A stretch of 64,000 bases of DNA from Flavobacterium xinjiangense (GTDB taxonomy: Bacteria > Bacteroidota > Bacteroidia > Flavobacteriales > Flavobacteriaceae), in the NCBI RefSeq assembly GCF_900142885.1, contig NZ_FRCL01000005.1, positions 186,001 through 250,000 on the forward strand. Direction: 5' to 3'. The translations under genes were made by a program, and so were the position numbers. Each line of letters starts with the position of its first letter. Position 1 is the stretch's first letter. This document shows, piece after piece, positions 40,486 to 63,917 of this stretch. The notes beneath the pieces were generated by a model, which saw nothing but the letters and a program-made list of their open reading frames with translations, ran no database searches and was not told the DNA's origin.

Positions 40486-41052
40486 ATGAGTAGAAATTAT
40501 AAATTTTATAATCCAGAGGGTTTGTATTTTATAAGTTTCTCCGTAGTAGGTTGGTTAGATGTATTTACTCGTAATGAGTACAAAGATTTATTTCTTGAAA
40601 GTGTAGCATTTTGTCAAAAAAACAAAGGATTAGAAATTCATGCTTGGTGTATTATGAGCAATCATGTGCATTTAGTTTTTAGGAGTATAAGTGGTCAAAA
40701 TCCTGAATTATTGATTGGTGATTTAAAAAGGTTTACCAGTCAATCAATTGTAAAAAGTATACAAGAAAATCCAAGAGAAAGCAGAAAAGAATTCTTGTTA
40801 GATTTTTTTAAAAAACAAGCTGAAAAAAGTTCAAATGTAAAACACTATCAATTTTGGCGTCATGATAATCAACCTATTGAGTTGTGGAGCAATAAAGTTA
40901 TTCAACAAAAGATAGACTATGTACACAATAATCCTGTAGAAGGGGGCGTAGTTTATAAAGCAGAAGATTATGTATACAGTAGTGCCATGGATTATTCAGG
41001 TCAAAAAGGATTAATTGATGATGTAGTTGTTTTTAGAATGTTTGGTATTTAA
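40486..41052 (+). CDS. REP-associated tyrosine transposase (RAYT)
   Basis: The 188-residue protein is a Y1 transposase of the IS200/IS605-related RAYT group. It has YFISFSVVGWLDVF as first strand, the HUH metal motif in NHVHLVFRS (about residues 59-67), a KRFTSQSIVKSI helix and the C-terminal IDYVHNNPVEGGVVY segment that holds the catalytic tyrosine and the family's NPV motif. RAYTs nick and join single-stranded DNA at REP hairpins and are usually domesticated, one-copy genes. The palindromes on both sides are its likely substrate. Its 3' end is repeated just downstream (41097-41166). Confidence 0.92.
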   Translation: MSRNYKFYNPEGLYFISFSVVGWLDVFTRNEYKDLFLESVAFCQKNKGLEIHAWCIMSNHVHLVFRSISGQNPELLIGDLKRFTSQSIVKSIQENPRESRKEFLLDFFKKQAEKSSNVKHYQFWRHDNQPIELWSNKVIQQKIDYVHNNPVEGGVVYKAEDYVYSSAMDYSGQKGLIDDVVVFRMFGI

Positions 41053-42022: not shown

Positions 42023-44620
<2,598 letters not shown>

Positions 44621-46860: not shown

Positions 46861-48303
46861 TTATGATAAAGTGTCCAGTTTCTGTCCTGTTAATACAATA
46901 AAATTTATTTTTGGAGATTCACATAACGAACAGCAATAATCTTCCGGTAAATCTTTGAATAGGACGCCTTTTTCAATTCCTTGACTAACATCACCATATT
47001 CTGAATTGTATAAAGTCAGACATTCCGGGCATTGATGGATATCTTGTGCTGCTTTCTCTTTTTTGGTTGCAGCGGGACTAATTTCCACCGATTGATTTCC
47101 TAGTTCTTCAAAATATTTCCTGCTCAATTCAATCAAAATGTTTGGTAATTCCAGTTTATCGACATCTTGGGTATGAACAATATATTCTTTAGTATTTGGA
47201 TCAAAATTTTTGGCATACAAAACATTATATGTGTCTCTGATTTTGATGGATTCTAAGTCTTTTGGCAATTCATTTTTCTCCACTACAATCGAAGTGAAGT
47301 AATGTCCCTCACGATTGTATTCTGATAAACCAAAGGTCAGTCCGTAAGTACTGATGTCAAACTGATCAAGCGTTCGAACCAGAAAAGTCTTCAAATTCAA
47401 TGCCCATTCCATCGCAACAGGTAAGTGCCAGTTAAGTTCCAATAAAGAATGGCGTACATTAATTCCTTTTTTGCCCAAGAATTTTTCCCAATCTAATTTT
47501 CGTTCCTTTGGAATCCCTTTTATAATGAAGGATTTCCATGGCGTGATGCATATTTTTCCAATTTTGCAATCAAAACATAAATCGCACATTTCTTTCAGAA
47601 AGTCTAAATCGTACAGGTTATTTCTCCAATACAATCCTAACCAATATTGGTCAATTCCTAATCGGTTCATTCCCTCATAGTAAGGAAAGGGGTAGAACGG
47701 AATATTCAAAGGTTTGTCTATTGTTCTATTATTGGTGTCCAAAGCTTCGCTTAGCAATTGAAAAATCATATCAACAGAATCAGGTTCCTCTTCCAGTATT
47801 TTTTCAATGGCATAATATATTTCTGCTATATTCCAACTGTAGATCAGTACGGGATACATTTCCATTTTATCCCATTTTGGCAGGCGGACATATAGAAACC
47901 AGTAATCCTCATGATCGGAAGCAATAAAGTTGATATGCCCCGTAAACAATGGAACTAACTGTTGTTTTGGATCGGTGATGTTTACTTTTAGCTTGGGTTG
48001 TTCTTTAAATTGCTCTAAAATATACAAAAATTTATTTCCGGTAAGCCAAGGCGTATTTCTGAAAATATCGGTAGACACATAAGACGAAACGATGTTATTC
48101 CCACTTTTTTCATTGGGATAAACAAAATGATTCTTACCTGTTTTTTCCTTTTCAATGTGGTTGAAACCTTTAGGGAATATGATATCCTGTCTGGAACCAA
48201 AGGAGATGGATTCCAGTCCTTGTTCTAAAGCCATATTTACAATTCCACGCAATTCTCCTGGTGAAATAACGCCTCCTTTTACTATTAGTCTTGTCAATTC
48301 CAT
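46861..48303 (-). CDS. Rubredoxin fused to degenerate nitrite/sulfite reductase scaffold
   Basis: The 480-residue protein has a first ferredoxin-like half of the nitrite/sulfite reductase type (GELRGIVNMALEQGLESISF, residues 16-35), a middle domain (about 75-230), a Cys cluster C240-x2-C243-x2-C246-x5-C252, a second half (ICITPWKSFIIKGIP, 251-265) and a C-terminal rubredoxin with C425-x2-C428 and C458-x2-C461. The siroheme/4Fe-4S cysteines normally following the second half are absent (LLELNWHLP stands there). It cannot be a normal siroheme reductase; an electron carrier for the adjacent nitrate reductase or the nitrite reductase is the likely role. It lies 81 bases downstream of the nitrate reductase gene on the same strand. 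Confidence 0.75.
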   Translation of the reverse strand: MELTRLIVKGGVISPGELRGIVNMALEQGLESISFGSRQDIIFPKGFNHIEKEKTGKNHFVYPNEKSGNNIVSSYVSTDIFRNTPWLTGNKFLYILEQFKEQPKLKVNITDPKQQLVPLFTGHINFIASDHEDYWFLYVRLPKWDKMEMYPVLIYSWNIAEIYYAIEKILEEEPDSVDMIFQLLSEALDTNNRTIDKPLNIPFYPFPYYEGMNRLGIDQYWLGLYWRNNLYDLDFLKEMCDLCFDCKIGKICITPWKSFIIKGIPKERKLDWEKFLGKKGINVRHSLLELNWHLPVAMEWALNLKTFLVRTLDQFDISTYGLTFGLSEYNREGHYFTSIVVEKNELPKDLESIKIRDTYNVLYAKNFDPNTKEYIVHTQDVDKLELPNILIELSRKYFEELGNQSVEISPAATKKEKAAQDIHQCPECLTLYNSEYGDVSQGIEKGVLFKDLPEDYCCSLCESPKINFIVLTGQKLDTLS

Positions 48304-48384: not shown

Positions 48385-51300
48385 TTATTTAATCTTCGCT
48401 AATATTTCTTTCACTTCAGTTTTACAACTTCCACAACCTAATCCGGCTCCGGTGGTTTTGCATAATTCAGTAAAATTAGTAACGCCGCTTTTTATGGCTT
48501 CTTCAATATTTCCGCTTCCTACCTGACTGCAAGAGCAAACTAATTTGCCTATTACTGGTTTTGTATTCGAACTTCCTCTCAGCAAAGTGTTTCTTTTATC
48601 AGATAATTCGATTTTGCTTTCGATCATTGTTTTGAACTCCGCAAACTCATTTTTATCACCCATTAAAATAGCACCTACTAATAAGTCATTTTTGACGATA
48701 CATTTTTTATAGTATCTTTTTCCTAAATCAGCAAACACAATTTCTTCGTATGAATCATCATTGTCAGGGATTTCTATTTCGCCAATACTGCACAAATTAA
48801 TGTCTTCGAGTTTCAGAATATTCATCAACACCGAACCTTTATAAAAGCTGCTGATATCTCCGGCCATATAATTTGCCAAGACATCCGCTTGTTCTTCAGC
48901 TGCCGATGTTATTCCGAATAACTGGTTGTTGAATTCAGCGATTTCACCAATGGCAAAAATGTTTGGATTCGAGGATTGCAAATACTGGTTTACTTTTACG
49001 CCACGCCCACAGGAAATGCCGGATTCTTTGGCTAATTCTATATTTGGGATGGTTCCAATGGTGTATACGATGGCATTAGCAGTTATGATACGACCACTTT
49101 TGAGCGCGATTTCTATTTCATTTGGATTATCTGTTTCGAACACGGTACTGACTTCATTATCAAAATAAATTTGAATATCACGAAGTTGGACTTCTTCGGC
49201 AAGTAATTTACTCGAAATTCGGTCTAATTGGCGTTCCATTAATCGGGAAGCCCTTTGAATTATCGTAATTTTTACTTTTTTATGTTTTAAGGCTGCAGCC
49301 AATTCCAATCCTAATAATCCGCCGCCAACGATAACTACATGCTGCTCTTCGGGAATTAAATTAGTGTTATCCAGATAGTTTTTCAAGCGGTCTGCATCTT
49401 CTTTTTTTCTGATGGTGAATCGTCCGGGTAAATGCAATTGTGCATTTTCGGGAATAAAAGGGCGGCTTCCTGTTGCTAATATTAAGGAGTCGAAAGAATG
49501 GGTAATGCCGTCACTATCTAGAATTATATTTTCTTTAGTATTGATGTTGTCAATTGAAACGCCAGATTTCATCGTGATATTTAAGTGGCGTAAAGCTTCG
49601 TCTTTTATTTTTAAAAGCTGTTCCCAAGAAAGTTCTGCAGTTACATATTCCGGTAGTAAAACTCGGTTGTAAAAAGGATTCTCTTCATTCGAAAAAACAA
49701 TAATTTCATCCGAAGTGTTGATTTCTCTGTAGTTCTGAATAAATCGGAAAGCAGCTGCTCCAGCACCTACAACCGAGATTTTTTCGAAAGGTTTCACGTA
49801 TTTGGCCACGGAAACGGTAGTAAACTTAAAATCAGGTTCTTTTGAAACAGGATCTACAAGCGTATTCGTTAAATTATTTGTTCTATTCAAATCATTTTCC
49901 AATTGTTTTCCCCAGTGCATCGGTAGGAAAACAACGCCTTCTCTTATGGTGTCAGCCACTTTTGCTTTTACACGAACAGTCCCGTTTTTGCTGGTTACCA
50001 CAACAATATCTCCGTTTTTTATGGATGCTTTATAGGCATCAATAGGATTTATTTCAAGCACGGGACTTGGTATATGGGTCATCAAGCGGGATACTTTTCC
50101 CGTTTTCGTCATCGTATGCCATTGATCACGAATGCGCCCGGTTGTTAAAATAAACGGAAACCTGTCATTTGGTTGTTCGGAGGTATTTTCAATCGCTGTC
50201 GGCAGATTAAATATCGCTTTTTCCGATGGCGTATAGAATTTTTTATCGGTAAATAAACGCGGCGTTCCGGGATGTCCGTAATCAGGGACAGGCCATTGAA
50301 AGGTCCCTTCGTTTTTTAGACGATTGTAATTTAAAAAGGAAATATCAATTGTGGTGTTTTTTGTCATTAAACAATATTCCTTATAGATATCTTCGGTACT
50401 GTTGAAATTGAATCCTGTGAAATTCATTTTTTTAGCAAAACGAGTCAGAATTTCCACATCAGGCAGTGCTTCTCCCGGTGCATTGATGCCCTTTGGCAAA
50501 TAGGATATTCGTCTTTCAGAGTTGGTCATCGTACCTTCTTTTTCTAACCAACCAGCTGCGGGTAATAATAAATCGGCAAATTTTGAGGTATCCGCATTAT
50601 GAGAAATGTCCTGAACAACTACAAATTTGGCATTAGCCAATGCTTTTTCTACTCTGCGAGAGTCTGGTAAACTCACTAACGGATTGGTACAGATAACCCA
50701 AATCGCTTTCATTTTTCCGGATTCTAAGGCATCAAACATTTCCGTAGCCGTTAATCCCGGTTTTTCAGAAATCCCGTCAACTCCCCAAAAATCAGCGACT
50801 TCTTTTCGGTGAACGGGATTGTTCAATTCTTTATGAACTGCGAGTAAGTTTGCCATACCACCCACTTCACGACCGCCCATTGCGTTGGGTTGTCCAGTCA
50901 ATGAAAAAGGTCCGGAACCTGGTTTTCCTATTTGTCCGGTTAGTAAAGAAAGATTAAGTAATGCGGTATTTTTATCTACGCCAATAGCACTTTGATTCAA
51001 TCCCATGGCCCAAAGCGAAAGAAATCCTTTGGCTTTACCAATGATGTCGGCCGCTAATTTAATGTCATTCAAAGGAACTCCACAAAGTTTAGATGCTTTT
51101 TCCAGGGAACTGGAAAGAACTAAATCCTTGTATAATTTGAAATTTTCAGTATGGTTTTTAATGAAATCATTGTCGGCATATCCTTTTTCGATTAGCCTTT
51201 TTGCCAAAGCATGGTACAAAATAATATCAGTACCCGGAATGATTTGTAAATGCAAATCGGCAGCTAAAGCCGAATCTGTTTTTCGAGGATCAACAACGAT

Positions 51301-51897
51301 GATTTTTGTTTTCGGATTTTTTTCCTTGTGTTGTTCGATTCGTCTAAAAAGAATAGGGTGACACCAAGCAGGATTAGCTCCTGTTATCAAAAAAGTATCT
51401 GCCAGTTCAATATCGTCGTAAGCGATTGGTACAGAATCTTCACCAAATGTTTTCTTGTAGCCCGCCACCGCTGAACTCATGCACAAACGAGAGTTAGTAT
51501 CGATATTATTGGTTTTCAGGAACCCTTTTACCAGTTTGTTTACCAAATAGTATTCCTCAGTAAGGCATTGTCCGGAAATGTAGAACCCAACACTGTCAGG
51601 ACCGTGTTTTTTTATGATAGCCGAAAAAACGGCTGCCGCACGATCTAGCGCGGTGTCCCAGCTCACTCTTTCCATGGGATGAGATTTGCTCCATCTCATT
51701 TCGGGATAAAGAATTCGATCTGAAGTATCGTTCACCACATAATGCAAGTTCATCCCTTTTGAGCAAAGCATCCCTTTATTTACGGGATGGTCTTTATCTC
51801 CCGTAACGGTTACTCCATTTTTTGCATCATTGGTTACTATAATTCCGCAACCTACTCCACAATAGGAACACGTGGTTTTTATTTCTGAATTTTGCAT
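48385..51897 (-). CDS. Assimilatory nitrate reductase fused to FAD reductase and BFD domain
   Basis: The 1170-residue cytoplasmic protein has three parts. Residues 5-700 are a molybdopterin oxidoreductase of the NasC/NarB type with a 4Fe-4S site (C10, C13, C17 and C45), the guanine dinucleotide contact regions and no Tat signal. Residues 705-1070 are a NirB-like FAD/NAD(P)H oxidoreductase (ISVVGAGAAAFRFIQNY, near 707; a second Rossmann VVIVGGGLLGLELAAALK). The last 55 residues are a BFD-type 2Fe-2S domain (KLVCSCSQVG and GAGLGCGSCKTEV). It can take electrons directly from a reduced pyridine nucleotide to reduce nitrate. It is divergent from the Fnr-like gene. Confidence 0.9.
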   Translation of the reverse strand: MQNSEIKTTCSYCGVGCGIIVTNDAKNGVTVTGDKDHPVNKGMLCSKGMNLHYVVNDTSDRILYPEMRWSKSHPMERVSWDTALDRAAAVFSAIIKKHGPDSVGFYISGQCLTEEYYLVNKLVKGFLKTNNIDTNSRLCMSSAVAGYKKTFGEDSVPIAYDDIELADTFLITGANPAWCHPILFRRIEQHKEKNPKTKIIVVDPRKTDSALAADLHLQIIPGTDIILYHALAKRLIEKGYADNDFIKNHTENFKLYKDLVLSSSLEKASKLCGVPLNDIKLAADIIGKAKGFLSLWAMGLNQSAIGVDKNTALLNLSLLTGQIGKPGSGPFSLTGQPNAMGGREVGGMANLLAVHKELNNPVHRKEVADFWGVDGISEKPGLTATEMFDALESGKMKAIWVICTNPLVSLPDSRRVEKALANAKFVVVQDISHNADTSKFADLLLPAAGWLEKEGTMTNSERRISYLPKGINAPGEALPDVEILTRFAKKMNFTGFNFNSTEDIYKEYCLMTKNTTIDISFLNYNRLKNEGTFQWPVPDYGHPGTPRLFTDKKFYTPSEKAIFNLPTAIENTSEQPNDRFPFILTTGRIRDQWHTMTKTGKVSRLMTHIPSPVLEINPIDAYKASIKNGDIVVVTSKNGTVRVKAKVADTIREGVVFLPMHWGKQLENDLNRTNNLTNTLVDPVSKEPDFKFTTVSVAKYVKPFEKISVVGAGAAAFRFIQNYREINTSDEIIVFSNEENPFYNRVLLPEYVTAELSWEQLLKIKDEALRHLNITMKSGVSIDNINTKENIILDSDGITHSFDSLILATGSRPFIPENAQLHLPGRFTIRKKEDADRLKNYLDNTNLIPEEQHVVIVGGGLLGLELAAALKHKKVKITIIQRASRLMERQLDRISSKLLAEEVQLRDIQIYFDNEVSTVFETDNPNEIEIALKSGRIITANAIVYTIGTIPNIELAKESGISCGRGVKVNQYLQSSNPNIFAIGEIAEFNNQLFGITSAAEEQADVLANYMAGDISSFYKGSVLMNILKLEDINLCSIGEIEIPDNDDSYEEIVFADLGKRYYKKCIVKNDLLVGAILMGDKNEFAEFKTMIESKIELSDKRNTLLRGSSNTKPVIGKLVCSCSQVGSGNIEEAIKSGVTNFTELCKTTGAGLGCGSCKTEVKEILAKIK

Positions 51898-63539: not shown

Positions 63540-63917
63540 TTAATCCAAAAAGCCAACGAAAACCTCGTCATCTACAATTTTTACGGGATAGGTTGCTATT
63601 TTTAAATCATCCCCATTCAGATTAGAACCATCTACAAGAGAAAATGTTTTTTTGTGCATAGGGCAAGCTATTTTAGGAATATCCTCAGCAGAACCAATCA
63701 TTCCTCTTGAAAGTACCATTTCCATTTTATGCGGACATAAGTTTTGACAGGCATACCATTCGTTTCTTCGGTCAAATTTTATAATGGCTATTTGCTTGTT
63801 TTTGTATTTGATGCAACCACCACCATTACTAGGAAAGTCTGAGGTGTTTCCTGCCTTGAACCATATTTTTACCTCATTTTGAGAAACGTTTTCGTATTGA
63901 TTTAGAATGTTTTCCAT
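63540..63917 (-). CDS. nirD: Nitrite reductase small subunit NirD (Rieske)
   Basis: The 125-residue protein is the Rieske-type small subunit of NAD(P)H nitrite reductase. The 2Fe-2S ligands are visible as Cys-x-His in NLCPHKMEM (near 61-69) and Cys-x-x-His in ACPMHKKTF (near 83-91). It works with the siroheme subunit NirB, which reduces nitrite to ammonium. The nirB gene is not in the window; it would be expected upstream of this gene, beyond position 64000. The next gene downstream is DUF4202, 29 bases away. Confidence 0.88.
   Translation of the reverse strand: MENILNQYENVSQNEVKIWFKAGNTSDFPSNGGGCIKYKNKQIAIIKFDRRNEWYACQNLCPHKMEMVLSRGMIGSAEDIPKIACPMHKKTFSLVDGSNLNGDDLKIATYPVKIVDDEVFVGFLD

Follow-up and report, generated by a model that had tools for sequence, protein, structure and literature searches.

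Relation to described systems

Rubredoxin is linked to nitrate reduction in clostridia, where it is a free small protein; no paper on this link was found in the open-access literature searched. In RubNIR, the Flavobacterium xinjiangense protein analysed here, the rubredoxin is carried on what appears to be a dead reductase scaffold, and the database name of the entire protein is just "rubredoxin". Passages of two papers on Aquirufa list "rubredoxin" among the genes of the assimilatory nitrate operon (PMC12528234, PMC11861422), and the figure legend of a review names "rub, rubredoxin" among the genes of unclear involvement in nitrate metabolism (PMC8199190). A reductase-like scaffold is not described in the passages concerned of these three sources. 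In a further paper, rubredoxin occurs in the reference list only (PMC12300631). No description of the scaffold was found among the open-access literature matches listed.

The scaffold itself resembles the siroheme nitrite and sulfite reductases (NirA, CysI/SiR), which combine PF03460 and PF01077 domains. It shares with them the four-part layout, the ferredoxin-like halves, the Arg of the TTRQ motif and the Asn of the RNIT motif. Unlike these enzymes, RubNIR lacks both Cys pairs of the 4Fe-4S/siroheme centre, carries an extra rubredoxin and belongs to a family in which none of 19 diverse members matched PF01077 at E <= 0.1. CobG, the precorrin-3B synthase (TIGR02435), has a tetrapyrrole as its substrate and is weakly matched by 11 of these 19 members (best 8.3e-6), and we presume that it shares a TPW(R/K) turn with RubNIR. 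The RubNIR analysed here differs from CobG in its TIGR02435 score, which is 11.0 bits where the cut-off is 234.8, and the three listed NCBIfam models all stayed below their cut-offs. The CxxC...CxxC pattern and the intervening loop are those of rubredoxin (PF00301); unlike a PF00301 rubredoxin, the domain sits on the C-terminus of a 410-residue scaffold, is shortened in at least three members and is absent from one clade. Finally, the nitrate-reductase-associated proteins of family PF09655, which we take to include cyanobacterial NarM, are similar in that their small gene is paired with an assimilatory-type nitrate reductase. In contrast to this likeness in context, there is no sequence relation to RubNIR (no match at E <= 1), and in 7 genomes a PF09655 gene stands beside RubNIR as a gene of its own. 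No paper on NarM maturation was found in the open-access literature searched.

Domain architecture of RubNIR

RubNIR is encoded on the minus strand of the window, which is the whole 64-kb stretch of DNA that was analysed. The following features were assigned to the gene:

46861..48303, minus strand: RubNIR gene, 480 aa, predicted siroheme-less nitrite/sulfite reductase fold with C-terminal rubredoxin (ORF and Pfam)
48124..48303, minus strand: first ferredoxin-like half, residues 1-60 (structure model and joint alignment)
48187..48192, minus strand: Arg38-Gln39, at the TTRQ-motif position of siroheme enzymes, kept in 204 of 204 homologue rows (alignment)
47470..47646, minus strand: second ferredoxin-like half, residues 220-278 (Pfam, structure model and joint alignment)
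47533..47544, minus strand: TPWK, residues 254-257, second-half counterpart of the TTRQ position (alignment)
47068..47469, minus strand: counterpart of the second NIR_SIR domain, residues 279-412, without siroheme cysteines (joint alignment)
46900..47037, minus strand: rubredoxin domain, CxxC...CxxC, residues 423-468 (Pfam)

The original prediction had recognised two halves of the reductase fold, a lack of the siroheme cysteines and a C-terminal rubredoxin from the sequence, and each of these was borne out. Pfam placed NIR_SIR_ferr on two stretches of the protein (1e-8), and the four-part layout was recovered when the protein was aligned jointly with NirA proteins and the sulfite reductase of the same genome. 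The rubredoxin is of canonical type, and its match (6.8e-10; 39.3 bits against a gathering score of 23) marks a putative metal site, for which iron and zinc are indistinguishable from sequence. The NIR_SIR 4Fe-4S/siroheme domain was not found by Pfam in RubNIR, and in the joint alignment RubNIR lacks both siroheme/4Fe-4S cysteine pairs: the stretch of the first is deleted and other residues take the place of the second. The NirA proteins and the sulfite reductase display both motifs in the same alignment. PF03460 was matched by 19 and PF00301 by 17 of the 19 diverse members. RubNIR relatives were not found in the viral contigs scanned.

A structure prediction, which had been proposed along with a comparison to NirA, was run on the window protein together with 54 of 80 relatives (the Flavobacterium rows, alignment A1). 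The comparison did return NirA (1zj8) as the top Foldseek match (445 columns, E 2e-5), followed by sulfite reductases and plant nitrite reductases; the AF2 model itself was poor (mean pLDDT 48.7) and usable only at residues 1-60 and about 221-278. As a consequence of the poor model, TM-scores were near 0.25 and the rmsd was above 10 A. The match is thus read as consistent with the fold family only, and the position of the CxxC or of a pocket in three dimensions was not drawn on. A profile-profile comparison of alignment A2 with four NirA proteins gave only a crossed match of the first half to the second half (probability 36%) and was set aside in favour of the joint alignment.

The Arg of TTRQ and the Asn of RNIT are both retained in RubNIR according to the joint alignment. 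Arg38 is presumably the counterpart of Arg117 of E. coli sulfite reductase, and for Arg83, Arg153 and Lys215, by what we take to be the numbering of that enzyme, no counterpart was seen when the joint alignment was read by eye. Among the basic residues that we assume to contact substrate or siroheme, Arg38 is kept and the other counterparts were not seen. The conserved face of Arg38-Gln39, Asn70 and TPWK may serve as a docking or anion-binding surface.

The Cys240-252 cluster

An additional claim of the original prediction was a second iron site formed by four cysteines ahead of the second half:

47575..47586, minus strand: C240-x2-C243, both Cys present in 69 of 83 clusters (homologue alignment)
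47548..47568, minus strand: C246 to C252, C246 present in 4 of 83 clusters and C252 in 32 of 83 (homologue alignment)

All four cysteines were indeed found in the window protein. The 204 homologue rows were sorted at 75% identity into 83 clusters; each row is a unique protein string, so a gene found by two routes may have been counted twice. The proposed family search for the pattern then found that the cluster is not conserved, the outcome that had been named beforehand as speaking against the site: all four cysteines are kept in 2 of 83 clusters, and a four-Cys iron site as a family-wide feature is refuted. The other parts of the original prediction stand by this criterion. Counted by row, C240 occurs in 191, C243 in 196, C246 in 91 and C252 in 133 of 204. 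A new iron site at this position is most improbable, because only the CxxC of C240 and C243 is widespread and even this motif is incomplete in 14 of 83 clusters, including the fusion-adjacent L209, L212 and L213. What speaks for such a site, apart from the broad distribution of the CxxC, is the Flavobacterium group (the window protein and relatives, 55 rows), in which C240, C243 and C246 never vary and C252 hardly does. Outside Flavobacterium, the four-Cys pattern was seen in rows L159 and L162 only.

Linkage to a nitrate reductase fusion

In the window, RubNIR lies 81 bp downstream of a nitrate reductase gene on the same strand, and a component of nitrite reductase is found further along:

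48385..51897, minus strand: nitrate reductase fusion, 1170 aa, with molybdopterin/Fe4S4, FAD with Rubredoxin_C, and BFD [2Fe-2S] modules (Pfam)
63540..63917, minus strand: NirD (Rieske), nitrite reductase small subunit (family match)

NirB lies just beyond the window end. The surroundings include a Crp-like regulator, an alginate-export-type porin, an ABC transporter with an NMT1-type binding protein, a NarK-like MFS protein, a kinase with a response regulator, DUF4202 and NirD, the nitrate-specific names of these neighbours being given by context. No PF09655 gene was found within the 64-kb window. The original view that the cluster holds no other electron carrier was wrong, because the fusion has both FAD and a BFD [2Fe-2S] domain and NirD is present. 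An ORF resembling a REP-type transposase (40486-41052) and a catalase-peroxidase-like gene (42023-44248), both named by eye, also lie in the window.

The suspected tie to nitrate reductase was confirmed across genomes and proved far stronger than anticipated. The fusion is found on the same strand and at most 1.5 kb upstream of RubNIR in 182 of 187 rubredoxin-bearing rows, and it is present in every one of the 69 genomes tested that have a copy with rubredoxin (28, 5 and 39 genomes from three sets, with 3 overlaps removed). The adjacency count covers rows with at least 500 bp of upstream sequence, 4 of 204 rows being set aside for falling below 500 bp, and the second copies of genomes G806 and G951 lie outside it. 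The gap between the two genes has a median of 77 bp, with 19 overlaps and 12 gaps over 300 bp. Five rows form the exceptions. In L204 and L217 the fusion lies farther upstream, beyond a gene of 545 aa (of the aldehyde dehydrogenase family in L204); in L214, NirD and NirB stand between scaffold and fusion; L207 is an additional copy, its genome having an adjacent pair as well; and in L246 a PF09655-type gene lies directly upstream, followed by the contig end. Extra rubredoxin-bearing copies away from the fusion are found in G780 (L207), G806 (L267) and G951 (L268), and G884 has one on another contig whose upstream side is cut by the contig end (L269); the fusion is present elsewhere in each of these genomes. 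The second copies L267, L268 and L269 share the same neighbours. The fusion of G849 is one open frame that was matched in two pieces.

Examination of 19 loci with their neighbours verified that in 16 no ORF of at least 90 aa separates RubNIR from the fusion. A PF09655 gene lies between them in L124 and a 262-aa ORF without Pfam match in L126, while L127 (genome G126) reaches the contig end with no fusion at the locus and none elsewhere in that genome. Among the fetched loci, PF09655-type genes are found beside RubNIR in G091, G817, G576, G735, G916, G784 and G710. Genes of PF09655 or a similar type adjoin the scaffold at L124, L246, L169, L186, L232, L194 and L182. Plasmid records yielded four matches, all from Bacteroidota, and in the two examined with gene annotation the labels given to the pair are "nitrate reductase" and "rubredoxin".

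A draw of 395 genomes across the phylum contained the scaffold in 29, the full-length fusion in 33 and both in 28 genomes, the remaining matches being to rubredoxin only. In five of these genomes a fusion of 48-54% identity is present and no scaffold was detected, and siroheme NirA-type genes are present at four of the five loci. These distant fusions (L131-L135) share the same layout, in operons with flavodoxin-like and reductase-like genes (named by eye).

This near-constant partnership of RubNIR with the nitrate reductase fusion is new here. Judged from sequence, RubNIR is a genuine and conserved partner with poor annotation, in which a known fold and a known domain are joined in a non-catalytic combination, and it is best explained as a dedicated, non-catalytic partner of the Bacteroidota nitrate reductase fusion. 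Nitrate assimilation in many Bacteroidota thus appears to involve a partner that is hidden under the database name "rubredoxin", and a catalytic siroheme fold would have been turned into a non-catalytic partner whichever of the functions discussed below applies. RubNIR could be deleted in a laboratory Flavobacterium.

A possible electron carrier or maturation factor

The original prediction had left open whether the protein is a donor or a chaperone for nitrate or nitrite reduction; the evidence leans towards an electron carrier and falls short of proof. We tentatively propose, as a reading that has nearly an even chance of being right, that RubNIR is a non-catalytic docking scaffold presenting its rubredoxin as an electron carrier to the fusion. 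The scaffold would dock on the nitrate reductase and place the rubredoxin near the FAD module, which is of the rubredoxin-reductase/NirB type. Electrons could then pass from FAD to rubredoxin and on to the 4Fe-4S/Mo site, either beside the built-in [2Fe-2S] domain or in its place. If so, Bacteroidota nitrate reduction would have a second electron route, of which no description was found.

The carrier reading is favoured by the reductase fold with its missing centre, by the linkage itself, by the lack of the full fusion in most genomes that have a rubredoxin-less copy (see below) and by the Rubredoxin_C region borne by the FAD module of the fusion, the latter being no proof of a rubredoxin partner because NirB has a similar FAD module. 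Further evidence comes from fusions without their own [2Fe-2S] domain. The BFD Cys pairs are kept in 115 of 117 partner-linked fusions, so the built-in chain looks complete, which counts against the carrier reading. Only L205 and L218 deviate; both belong to second copies in genus g333 in which the fusion stops before the BFD domain, and the fusions of L264 and L265 have the same tail. The adjacent partner retains a canonical rubredoxin in L205, L264 and L265, and in L218 it is broken into two frames. The BFD loss in g333, seen in one lineage only, would be permitted if RubNIR substitutes for the built-in carrier. All four of these second fusions adjoin a scaffold gene (genomes G762, G800, G713 and G750).

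Other observations fit the carrier reading less well. In at least three members (L125, L126 and L215) the rubredoxin loop is cut to a short knuckle that keeps the four Cys and might bind zinc. Extra copies stand away from the fusion, the partner in L218 is broken, five fusion genomes have no detected scaffold, the loss of rubredoxin described below amounts to one event in one clade, and the RubNIR model is of unusable quality. The main rival, which we regard as less likely, is that RubNIR is a maturation or stability factor for the fusion. It would help to insert cofactors or to fold or protect the enzyme, and its rubredoxin-like domain would be a recognition module with a bound metal. In favour of this are the tight, almost one-to-one pairing with a reductase that seems to have a full electron chain of its own, and the shortened knuckles that keep only the four Cys. 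If this explanation is true, it would account for a step needed for making the enzyme elsewhere. Against it, most RubNIR rows keep a canonical rubredoxin and the five more distant fusions occur without a detected scaffold. The separate PF09655 gene adjoining RubNIR in 7 genomes also weighs against this role and shows that an associated factor of a known family can coexist with it, a second factor still being compatible.

Members without rubredoxin

Family f4, to which genome G554 belongs, contains the scaffold in 63 of 274 genomes, and in 14 of these a copy without rubredoxin was found. The fusion was searched in 51 of the 63 scaffold genomes and in 8 genomes without scaffold. Of the 14 genomes, 12 do not have the full fusion; the other two, G914 and G877, have it beside a separate rubredoxin-bearing copy in addition to the rubredoxin-less one. 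The remaining 37 scaffold genomes tested all have the fusion, and it was found in none of the 8 scaffold-free genomes (0/8), where G804 matches the Mo part only. A partial match of about 550 query residues in G831 was scored as lacking the fusion. Genomes with a shortened knuckle (G662, G190 and G391) were scored as rubredoxin-bearing, as was G800, which has one copy with the rubredoxin as a separate ORF and one broken copy. L024 (contig end) and L217 (rubredoxin as a separate ORF) were left out of the rubredoxin-less count. The absence of the fusion from 12 of the 14 genomes indicates that the rubredoxin tracks nitrate reductase and that the role of the scaffold is separable. This natural experiment, in which rubredoxin is absent where nitrate reductase is absent, hints at which domain does which job.

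In the tree, the 13 representatives of the rubredoxin-less proteins group in a single clade (support 1.0) nested within the rubredoxin-bearing family, and their origin is therefore one evolutionary event and not twelve. The clade comprises 14 proteins (L249-L260, L173, which is the same gene as in L216, and L109). Of 5 pairs tried, 2 yielded substitution rates, with dN 0.041 against dS 1.393 and dN 0.099 against dS 1.460; in the other three dS was saturated. By this measure, the rubredoxin-less scaffolds are still under selection.

The genomic context of this clade bears on a third explanation, that RubNIR is a ligand-holding pseudo-enzyme. The scaffold would still bind siroheme, nitrite or another anion on its conserved face and would bridge nitrate reductase and siroheme nitrite reductase or serve siroheme enzymes, which we consider improbable. 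It is suggested by the basal rubredoxin-less members of G989 and G554, which lie between sulfite reductase and tetrapyrrole/siroheme genes, by Arg38-Gln39 and further conserved positions of the face that siroheme enzymes use, and by CobG being the most frequent weak match apart from rubredoxin. Such a context was, however, not seen in the other 12 of the 14 members (in G126 the upstream side is cut by the contig end). Moreover, G813 and G993 have the scaffold and no PF01077 protein at E <= 1e-5 (G993 is 81% complete), and for several basic residues of siroheme enzymes, as we assume their numbering, no counterpart was seen in RubNIR. The gene labelled HemA in rubredoxin-less contexts is an aminotransferase (PF00155) according to Pfam. 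An equally doubtful evolutionary version would be that a tetrapyrrole- or anion-binding pseudo-enzyme kept the siroheme-side face and dropped the Fe-S centre, bridging nitrate and siroheme nitrite reductase where it has a rubredoxin and, in one family, being freed for another process where it does not. The rubredoxin-less scaffold of L216, the one member scanned, has no Pfam match at E <= 1e-5, and the sulfite reductase adjoining it (L216:9418-11547) has an unusual C-terminal match to a HEPN domain.
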